Positions 21,007 to 45,758 of a DNA stretch of 45,812 nt are shown here, piece after piece. A program made the translations under genes and the position numbers. The stretch spans positions 1-45,812 of the forward strand of contig JAAYXB010000048.1 in NCBI GenBank assembly GCA_012516125.1, in the 5' to 3' direction. This stretch comes from Bacillota bacterium (GTDB lineage Bacteria > Bacillota > SHA-98 > UBA4971). The notes beneath the pieces are model-generated. The model was not told the origin of the DNA. It saw only the letters and a program-made list of their open reading frames with translations, and did not search any database. Each line of letters starts with the position of its first letter. Position 1 is the stretch's first letter.

Positions 21007-21822
21007 TCAGCCGCTCCTCTTGAGTTTCCCTGTGCGCATCGCGTGAAGCTCACCCCAGTTAAACACCTTCAGCCCCAGGGGGATCAGCACAACCCCGATG
21101 GCAAGCAGCAGCGCAAGGTCGCTCCCGATGTCGCGGACGGAGGCATTCTGAAGCAGCGCTGCGCGCGCCGCCCTGAGGGTGTAGGTGGCCGGCGACAGCC
21201 GCGAAAGCGGCTGAAGCCATGCCGGCAACACGTCCACCTCGTAGTAGACGCCTGAGACGAGCAGAATCGCCGCCTCCAGGATGTGCGCCGCCTGCGAGCC
21301 CTTCTCCGGAGACAATAGCGGCAGCACCGCAGCCATCAGCCCGACCCCGATGAAGGACAGGCTCGATAGCAGGAGCACCACGAACGCTGCCCCGAGGTTG
21401 GCGCTGCCGAGGTCCAGCTTGAACAGGGACACGACCGCAAGCATGACCACGACGGTCCTCACGGCCCCGTAGGTCGCAGCGTAGAGGCACACCCCGCCGA
21501 GGTATGACAGTCGCTTCATGGGCGCCATGAACGAGTACTCGATGGTTCCCTCCCAGCGCTCCCACTGCACCGACTCAGCCACTTCATGGAAGAGCACCGA
21601 CAGGAATCCCCAGAGCAGCGCCCCAACGACAAGGTAGAGCACCCTGTCGCCGCCCCCGCCCCCGCCCCCGGCGGGGTTCACGCCGATGAACGCTATCGTG
21701 AGCGTGTTCACCACCGTGTACACGAGGAACACGATCTCCCAGCCTATGTATCTCTTGATGAGGTTGAAGTTCCGCTCGACCAGAGCGTAGCTTCTACGCA
21801 CCTCTCTCACGAGCTCAATCAC
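21007..21822 (-). CDS. ABC-2 type transporter permease
   Basis: A 271-residue membrane protein with about six hydrophobic segments, and the ABC-2 (exporter) permease layout: an N-terminal cytosolic helix, paired helices, then a conserved cytosolic element (EGTIEYSFMAPMKRLSYLGG) and the C-terminal core LLLVSGVYYEVDVLPAWLQPL (shortened to SGVYYEVDVLPAWLQPLSRL). This last is close to the LSG.F.P...LP..L motif of the family. Substrate is unknown. Candidates are drugs, lipids or polysaccharides. It overlaps the 3' end of the ATPase gene by 8 bases, so the two subunits are co-translated. Expression probably depends on the upstream attenuator-like leader. Confidence 0.88.
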   Translation of the reverse strand: MIELVREVRRSYALVERNFNLIKRYIGWEIVFLVYTVVNTLTIAFIGVNPAGGGGGGGDRVLYLVVGALLWGFLSVLFHEVAESVQWERWEGTIEYSFMAPMKRLSYLGGVCLYAATYGAVRTVVVMLAVVSLFKLDLGSANLGAAFVVLLLSSLSFIGVGLMAAVLPLLSPEKGSQAAHILEAAILLVSGVYYEVDVLPAWLQPLSRLSPATYTLRAARAALLQNASVRDIGSDLALLLAIGVVLIPLGLKVFNWGELHAMRTGKLKRSG

Positions 21823-22936
21823 TGTAATCCTCCTCCTCCAGACGGGACTCCTTGAGCGCCTTCCCGGTGAGCGTGAAGAACACGTCCTCCAGGGTCACCG
21901 TCTCGCCGTTCTTCGCAAGGCCTGCCTTGAGGCGGGCCGGCGTGTCGAGCGCTACGAATCTGCCCTGGTCGATGATGGCCACCCTGTCGCACAGCCGGTC
22001 GGCCTCCTGCATGTCGTGGGTGGTCAGGATCACCGTGGTGTCGTGCGAGCCCCTTACCTCGAGGACATAGTCCTGAACCTCACGCTTTGACACCGGGTCG
22101 AGGCCCGTGGTCGGCTCGTCGAGGAGGAGCAACACCGGGGACGTGAGGAGCGCTCTCGCGACCGCGACCTTCTGCTGCATCCCCCGGGACAGGTCCTCGA
22201 GCGGCTCGTACGCCTTGCTCTCGCTGAAGCCCAGACGCTTCAGGATGTCGATGGCTCTCTCGCGCGCCCAGCGGATGTCCACGTCGTAAAGCCGCGCGGC
22301 GTAGCTCAGGTTCTCCATTGCCGACAGCTTCTTGAAGAAGGCCGCCTCCACGGAGACGCGGTTTATCAGGCGTCGTACCGCAAACCTCTCTCGCACCACG
22401 TCATGGCCGAACACCCTGATCTCGCCCTCGTCGGGCAAGAGCAGCGTGGATATCAGCCTGATTAGCGTGGACTTGCCTGAGCCGTTGGGCCCCAGGATGC
22501 CGAATATCTCGCCGCGCTTCACACTGAACGTCACGCCCGACACGGCCTCCACCCTCACGCTCTTTGGGAACAGCGTGGCGACTGCCCGCGAGACGGCAAG
22601 CCGCCCCCGGTGCCTGCCGTTCGTGCCGGTGCCGCGGGAAGCACGGCTGTCCGGTCCGCCATTGCAGGCACTGCGGATGTCCAGGCAGCCGTTGCTATTG
22701 CAGCGCACGCCCGCACACGCACTCCCCACGCCGGCACCACGCTCGCGCTCGCCCGCGCCGGCATGCGCGTCGGGCTCGGCTCTCCCAGCGCCCGCGTGTG
22801 CAACAGCCTGCCCGCCGACATCGCGCTCACCTGGCGACGCGTACCATTCGGTAGAAGGCTTTGCCGTTGGCCTCGTTTCCTTCCTTATGTAGAACACTTT
22901 CCGCGCGCTGATGCACTCGAGTGCCATTTCTTGCAT
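21815..22936 (-). CDS. ABC transporter ATPase with a long low-complexity insertion
   Basis: A 373-residue nucleotide-binding subunit. Walker A is GPNGSGKST (149-157), the signature is the variant LSRGMQQ, Walker B is LLLLDEPTTGLDP and the H-loop is LTTHDM. The Q-loop position reads SVEAAFF, with Glu where Gln is usual. The first beta strand (MALECISARKVFYIRK) is separated from the rest of the domain (VEAVSGVTFSVKRGEIFGIL) by about 90 residues rich in Gly, Ala, Arg and Cys (about 21-112), which the family normally lacks. Excluding that insert, the protein matches exporters of the drug/polysaccharide class. ATG 22936 follows GCGAGG. It is the first gene of a two-gene operon with the permease and is preceded by a leader ORF and hairpins. 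Confidence 0.9.
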   Translation of the reverse strand: MQEMALECISARKVFYIRKETRPTAKPSTEWYASPGERDVGGQAVAHAGAGRAEPDAHAGAGERERGAGVGSACAGVRCNSNGCLDIRSACNGGPDSRASRGTGTNGRHRGRLAVSRAVATLFPKSVRVEAVSGVTFSVKRGEIFGILGPNGSGKSTLIRLISTLLLPDEGEIRVFGHDVVRERFAVRRLINRVSVEAAFFKKLSAMENLSYAARLYDVDIRWARERAIDILKRLGFSESKAYEPLEDLSRGMQQKVAVARALLTSPVLLLLDEPTTGLDPVSKREVQDYVLEVRGSHDTTVILTTHDMQEADRLCDRVAIIDQGRFVALDTPARLKAGLAKNGETVTLEDVFFTLTGKALKESRLEEEDYSD

Positions 22937-22997: not shown

Positions 22998-23035
22998 AAT
23001 CAAAAGGAGAGCCGGGTCTTGCCCACGACTCTCCT
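22998..23035 (-). terminator. Attenuator terminator before the ABC transporter operon
   Basis: On the minus strand AGGAGAG (23035-23029) pairs with CTCTCCT (23011-23005), with a partly paired interior including GTGGG and CCCGG. It is followed by TTTTGATTT. It lies 62 bases before the ATPase start. Its interior segment GTCGTGGGC (23029-23021) is complementary to GCCCACGAC in the 3' arm of the upstream hairpin, so the two structures compete. Confidence 0.7.
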
Positions 23036-23073
23036 GAAGATGGCGTGACGGGATCTTCAACGCCAAACAGAAA

Positions 23074-23104
23074 GGGTCGTGGGCTTTCGTGCGGCCCACG
23101 ACCC
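23074..23104 (-). promoter_or_regulatory. Anti-antiterminator hairpin of the leader region
   Basis: On the minus strand GGGTCGTGGGC (23104-23094), a 9-base loop, and GCCCACGACCC (23084-23074) form a perfect 11-bp stem 16 bases after the leader ORF stop. A following TTTCTGTTT means it could also terminate by itself. Its 3' arm can alternatively pair with 23029-23021 in the downstream terminator, giving the 1:2, 2:3, 3:4 logic of a classical attenuator. Confidence 0.65.
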
Positions 23105-23120
23105 TACCAATATCTACCAG

Positions 23121-23240
23121 CTAAAGGGCAGGGTCAGGCCGCGCATGGACGGAAACACCCTCCGAGCGCCCGGCAACGAGCGCGCAGGACGCAGCGCCAG
23201 CGGCAAGCCAAACCTTGATGATGAGCATCGTCCTGATCAC
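23121..23240 (-). CDS. Short leader peptide of the ABC transporter attenuator
   Basis: A 39-codon ORF with GTG start at 23240, seven bases after GGGAGGT. An alternative in-frame ATG at 23261 gives 46 residues. The peptide has one hydrophobic helix (MLIIKVWLAAGAASCALVAG) and a tail ending HARPDPAL before TAG. It lies between a strong promoter (23316-23344) and two competing hairpins, the first beginning 16 bases after the stop codon, within reach of a paused ribosome. This resembles leader ORFs that control drug exporters by ribosome-mediated transcription attenuation, such as bmrB before B. subtilis bmrCD. It may also be a real small membrane protein. No homologue is recognised by sequence. 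Confidence 0.5.
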   Translation of the reverse strand: MIRTMLIIKVWLAAGAASCALVAGRSEGVSVHARPDPAL

Positions 23241-23315
23241 TTGCGCGACCTCCCTTCTCATGTCACAGAATTCTCCCCCCGAATTGCATGAGGGGTTCCA
23301 CTCTTGCCAAGTTCC

Positions 23316-23344
23316 AGTATAAGCTGTGCACGCTCCGGCGTCAA
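23316..23344 (-). promoter_or_regulatory. Sigma-A promoter of the ABC transporter leader
   Basis: On the minus strand TTGACG (23344-23339), 17 bases, TATACT (23321-23316). Only one mismatch to the -35 consensus and one to the -10, with ideal spacing. Transcription would begin near 23309, 48-70 bases before the possible leader starts. Confidence 0.85.

Positions 23345-45640: not shown

Positions 45641-45758
<118 letters not shown>

Follow-up and report, generated by a model that had tools for sequence, protein, structure and literature searches.

A candidate ribosome-mediated attenuator of six segments and two terminators upstream of an ABC exporter operon in Bacillota

Judged by analogy, the general logic of the element that we describe here is already known as ribosome-mediated attenuation, as in trp/his, bmrCD and erm(K)/mef(E). 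In the trp and his attenuators of enterobacteria (PMC1183508), helices in the leader exclude one another, an early stall leads to antitermination, and either no translation of the leader or its full translation leads to termination, as in the model proposed below. Unlike those systems, the present leader has no run of regulatory codons, its first helix holds the leader's own ribosome-binding site, its middle helix itself resembles a terminator, and the operon that it would control encodes an exporter. In bmrB-bmrCD of Bacillus subtilis (PMC4191407), a leader ORF and a terminator likewise stand before an ABC exporter operon, and slowed translation gives read-through. An earlier note on this DNA, made from the letters alone, had drawn that comparison, and it stands for the logic but fails for the anatomy: the bmrB terminator lies inside the leader coding region, whereas here both terminators are downstream of the leader stop, and one arm of the switch is the Shine-Dalgarno (SD) sequence of the leader itself. 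The peptide and the transporter class differ as well. The macrolide attenuators of erm(K) and mef(E)/mel (PMC4335068) share a short leader ORF on which an antibiotic-stalled ribosome controls termination, and two adjacent Rho-independent terminators have been reported for erm(K). Their R-X-R leader motif resembles that of many members of the present family, though not of the leader studied here; they differ in having an MRLR stall site at residues 5-8 of a leader of 8-14 codons, and in the genes that they control. Finally, the ABC-leaders of Naville and Gautheret (2010; PMC2965389) are premature terminators with potential antiterminators before ABC transporter genes, described from five examples in Gammaproteobacteria, lactobacilli, other Firmicutes and bacilli, and no leader peptide is named where those examples are shown.

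Against this background, several features of the present element would set it apart: a ribosome-binding site that serves as the first arm, a chain of six members, two terminators that both lie beyond the leader, and an attachment to one exporter family across phyla. No Rfam 15 family reached its gathering score here, a scan at relaxed thresholds gave matches at chance level only, and no description of the element was found in the open literature that was searched. The locus lies on the minus strand of the window, by which we mean the whole 45,812-nucleotide stretch that was analysed (Table 1). It consists of a chain of segments, Z-A-B-C-D-D', each of which is able to pair with either neighbour. 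In the OFF state Z pairs with A, B with C (hairpin T1) and D with D' (hairpin T2), while in the ON state A pairs with B and C with D. We consider it probable that these six segments make up a transcription attenuator which acts through two terminators in tandem, is mediated by the ribosome, and is turned ON only when a ribosome is held in the first codons of the leader.

Table 1. Positions of the element, its promoter, its operon and one distant gene in the window
Feature	Position	Strand	Remarks
Sigma-70-type promoter, TTGACG-17-TATACT	23316..23344	(-)	predicted; 10/12 matches
Segment Z, leader SD region AGGGAGGTCGCGCA	23242..23255	(-)	pairs with A in OFF
Leader ORF, 39 aa MIRTMLIIKVWLAAGAASCALVAGRSEGVSVHARPDPAL	23121..23240	(-)	GTG start, TAG stop; SD GGGAGG upstream
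Segment A, 3' end of leader ORF	23127..23145	(-)	codes for HARPDPA; pairs with Z or B
Spacer after stop CTGGTAGATATT	23109..23120	(-)	loop of A:B hairpin; CTGGTA strongly conserved (alignments A1, A2)
Segment B	23091..23108	(-)	pairs with A (ON) or C (T1, OFF)
T1, B:C hairpin of 11 bp, U-rich tail TTTCTGTTT	23065..23104	(-)	predicted intrinsic terminator
Segment C, 3' arm of T1	23074-23084	(-)	
T2, D:D' hairpin and TTTTGATTT	22998..23034	(-)	predicted intrinsic terminator
Segment D, 5' part of T2	23021..23029	(-)	pairs alternatively with C (ON)
ABC ATPase, DrrA-like	21815..22936	(-)	below curated DrrA cut-off; element found only before this gene
ABC-2-type permease	21007..21822	(-)	second gene of operon
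5S rRNA gene	45641-45757	(-)	end of window

In the proposed mechanism, RNA polymerase would start about 70 nt upstream of the leader ORF. With no ribosome on the transcript, A would fold back on Z and mask the leader's ribosome-binding site, leaving B free to form T1, which T2 would follow, so that the operon stays OFF. During free translation the ribosome itself would mask A, B would again form T1 with T2 next, and the outcome would also be OFF. Z would be covered and A left free in one case only, when a ribosome is held in the first codons, and A would then capture B directly on its synthesis; T1 would thereby be blocked, C would capture D, T2 would fail, and the exporter operon would be transcribed.

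As the earlier note had proposed, a promoter, a leader ORF with a strong SD sequence, a hairpin and a terminator each occur at the positions that it gave, in front of the ATPase gene. The near-consensus promoter was recovered on the minus strand; sites at that level number 3 in 6 kb against 0.9 expected, and most of the relatives read have similar -35 and -10 boxes in front of their leaders. The predicted transcript start region TGGCAAnAnnGGAA (about 23309-23290, minus strand) is conserved in the genus and genome G016 (relatives L013-L017 and L010) and is without an obvious pairing partner. In L053, a Chloroflexota-type member, an inverted-repeat element GCAATGAC...GTCATTGCGAGG...GAAGCAATC lies between promoter and leader (1980-2110).

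The perfect hairpin 16 nt past the leader stop is likewise present, with 11 bp between 23104-23094 and 23084-23074, as is a second hairpin, tailed by TTTT, whose interior (23029-23021) can form 9 bp with the 3' arm of the first. The first hairpin is not a plain anti-antiterminator. Its 3' arm is indeed able to pair with the interior of T2, but the hairpin also carries a U-tract of its own, TTTCTGTTT, and since a similar U-rich tail follows it in nearly all relatives, it looks like a terminator itself. That U-tract had been missed, as had the capacity of the leader's 3' end to pair with the ribosome-binding region or with B: segment A is complementary to Z over 14 pairs and to B over 15 pairs. 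The minimum-energy fold of the ribosome-free leader contains Z:A, T1 and T2, which is the OFF state. The suggested check by RNA folding bore the structure out, the region that runs from the stop codon of the leader through T2 folding 4.5 SD better than dinucleotide shuffles and the whole leader region 3.6 SD better. A simple hairpin scanner listed neither hairpin, probably owing to its loop and tail limits. The post-stop loop, CTGGTAGAT/CTGGTAAATAATG (23109-23120, minus strand), is conserved between two genera though it is unpaired in both states, and could serve as a binding site or make the polymerase pause.

The arms of the element are kept pairable by compensatory change, in a comparison of homologous loci of the kind that the earlier note had suggested. 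Across 8 sequences from the genus and G016, 99% of the cells are paired in the OFF structure and 98% in the ON structure; the 14 pairs of Z:A are paired in 99.1% of cells and T1 in 100%. Within C:D, two pairs show double compensatory changes from AU to GC in these 8 sequences, and A:B shows compensatory changes CG/AU and GC/AU between genera. When the sister genus is included, giving 13 sequences, five pairs of the ON helices have changed on both sides, their covariation score is reached by none of 500 shuffles, and sliding the partner by 1-3 columns lowers the pairing from 90% to 28-43%. The OFF helices vary within the genus on one side only, and the evidence for them there is therefore conservation rather than covariation.

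A comparison of native partners with partners swapped in from other groups extends this result beyond the genus. A strict helix score was used for it, since RNA duplex energies on wide windows allow long interior loops and are too permissive. Native partners scored higher for Z:A (29.3 vs 19.5, sd 0.86, 20 groups), for A:B (30.1 vs 22.3, sd 0.90, 19 groups) and for C:D (27.1 vs 21.3, sd 1.07, 15 groups), and for each of the three helices the native mean lay above all 2000 derangements. Most members had first been listed by ranking Z:A pairing over all ORFs, which picked spurious ORFs too, and because of this bias the leaders were re-selected without regard to pairing, by SD strength and position before T1 only; selection bias is thus reduced, not removed, and Z:A still scored 24.2 vs 19.2 (sd 0.93), above all derangements. 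A:B was no better than swapped or shuffled partners in the Chloroflexota groups chl3, chl4, chl6 and chl7 and in L084, and most members of group g2 carry an A-C mismatch in C:D. Since A:B falls short of significance in several groups from Chloroflexota, the full chain is best supported in Bacillota.

The element travels with the transporter. A DNA search found it in all five genomes of the same genus, in two copies in G016 and, as a weak match, in a single sister-genus genome. The class comprises 17 genomes here, and a covariance model of A through T2, which finds distant members only weakly, matched 13 of them, with one copy each except for the two in G016, and always at ATPase loci. Two of the genomes without a match, G013 and G014, have diverged leaders before the orthologous ATPase, and the other two, G006 and G015, are without a close homologue, their ATPases being only 38-42% identical; the element stands before every recognised orthologue of the ABC ATPase in the class. 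The upstream FAD gene adjoins the leader in the window's genome and in G004, lies about 5 kb from it in G003 (G003:C57:11037-16799), and is replaced by different upstream genes in G016; in both genomes the element stays with the transporter, from which we conclude that it belongs to the transporter. A scan of genome contigs, among whose listed records nearly all are metagenome-assembled genomes, found orthologous ATPases in many phyla, and in many members from Bacillota and Chloroflexota the gene is preceded by a leader ORF whose ends are complementary to each other and by tandem terminators after that ORF. Tandem terminators that share at least 6 bases precede 23 of 76 orthologues vs 0 of 14 other ABC ATPases. 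The best match of the ATPase itself is the daunorubicin-resistance ATPase DrrA (TIGR01188), to which it does not belong by the curated cut-off (249 bits vs 312), and a PDB search with it gave general ABC relatives only. Its N-terminal part (22870-22570, minus strand) carries a long, variable insertion rich in Ala, Gly and Arg between the first strand and the Walker A region, which is much shorter in the sister genus.

The leader is predicted to be translated, given that SD, start, stop and reading frame are conserved in the members read. Start, stop and SD are homologous in G001-G005 and G016, with length changing in frame (38-57 codons), and the sister genus has shorter homologues of 18-23 codons; counts by codon position cover too few sites to prove selection on the peptide. 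The two copies of leader and ATPase in G016, on contigs C10 and C23 (L010 and L007), have different surroundings, and one of its leaders is 57 codons long with repeated GADGAD/GVYG units. The Chloroflexota-type leaders L047, L051, L053, L059, L060, L063, L074, L082, L083 and L118 have in common the C-terminal motif PCRSAP/CRSAP; in several of these, Z overlaps the start codon (AUGCGCACUGC), whereas in Bacillota it lies before it.

Where the ribosome would have to halt is the point on which our reading departs from the earlier one, which had called a ribosome-mediated attenuator for the ABC operon, as the present evidence supports, but had placed the stall at the end of the leader, where the ribosome would block the first hairpin and let C pair with D so that T2 is not made. 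We regard this trigger as unlikely. The C:D pairing on which it relies is real and compensated, the leader end is conserved as RPDP or RP in many Bacillota members, X-Arg-Pro is one of the reported erythromycin arrest motifs (PMC8298421), and G007 keeps the Arg by way of AGA at the cost of one RNA pair. The first hairpin, however, has its own U-tract and begins 16 nt downstream of the stop codon, out of reach of a ribosome halted there, and such a halt therefore covers A and leaves the hairpin's 5' arm free. We modelled T1 formation at equilibrium by placing a ribosome footprint of 30 nt at one position after another, counting T1 as lost when it fell below half of its ribosome-free value. In these folding models a ribosome on codons 0-6 abolished T1 in 18 of 38 members, one on codons 8-14 in 1 of 26, and one at the leader end in none of the 38. 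At the stage when C has yet to be transcribed, A:B is present in nearly all members if the ribosome sits early and mostly absent if it sits late, and some members form A:B at this stage with no ribosome at all. In the window's own sequence, A:B then amounts to about 19 pairs, with or without a ribosome, and T1 holds at 0.88-0.99 at equilibrium when the ribosome is placed early. T2 persists in most of the equilibrium folding runs, and its relief, like the inducer and the exporter's substrate, is something that we infer. The models thus support an early stall over a stall at the leader end as the trigger, suggesting that T1 is lifted when the ribosome sits early and kept when it sits late. The conserved Arg-Pro codons are explained, at least partly, by the pairing of A with the SD region, and a delay of the ribosome over A at the Arg-Pro may in addition favour T1 formation.

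Three further explanations were weighed. An amino-acid attenuator of the his or trp type, which would sense the shortage of a given aminoacyl-tRNA, uses the same kind of mutually exclusive helix chain (PMC1183508), but no run of a single amino acid is common to the leader peptides compared and the gene is an exporter, which makes this reading quite improbable. The CTGGTA loop and the GGCCGTGGGC arms of the terminators are conserved beyond pairing needs, as they might be if a ligand or protein bound the same chain of helices and the ORF were incidental; this we think improbable, since the SD, start, stop and frame are kept even through in-frame changes of length, and the RNA has neither an Rfam match nor an aptamer-like junction besides the chain itself. 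Nor do we see much room for the idea that these are ordinary tandem terminators which end the transcript of the upstream FAD gene, with the ORF there by chance, an explanation that we hold to be very improbable: both hairpins do resemble intrinsic terminators, but a conserved promoter lies between the FAD gene and the leader, the element stays with the ABC gene even next to a different upstream gene, and the alternative helices covary.

Under the preferred reading, a ribosome held in the first codons, the most likely signal would be slowed early elongation caused by ribosome-targeting inhibitors, a stress that the exporter would relieve. Motifs of the form Arg/Lys-X-Arg/Lys arrest macrolide- or ketolide-bound ribosomes, and stalling on a short MRLR peptide has been described (PMC8298421). 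Such a motif occurs at codons 2-5 in 35% of 24 groups vs 6% in shuffled leaders and 4.5% among the 402 other N-termini that these loci supplied. A stall at codons 2-5 would cover Z and leave A free, as the model requires. The leader in the window (MIRTML) has one early Arg and no Arg-X-Arg, and for this reason the basic motif serves as a hint at the level of the family.

Whether the members together form an ancient, undescribed class of translation-stress sensor in Bacillota and Chloroflexota, in which the leader's ribosome-binding site would be the first arm of a six-arm chain, only a halt in the first codons would give ON, and either no translation or normal translation would give OFF through two terminators, we judge to be evenly balanced. 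The arrangement offers a search signature for more systems, namely a leader ORF whose two ends are complementary and, after it, tandem terminators that share arms. If the reading is true, it would add a widespread, uncatalogued attenuator that senses antibiotics or stress in poorly studied phyla, tie an uncharacterised family of ABC exporters to ribosome stress, and provide a compact switch that distinguishes no ribosome, a moving ribosome and a ribosome stuck at the start.
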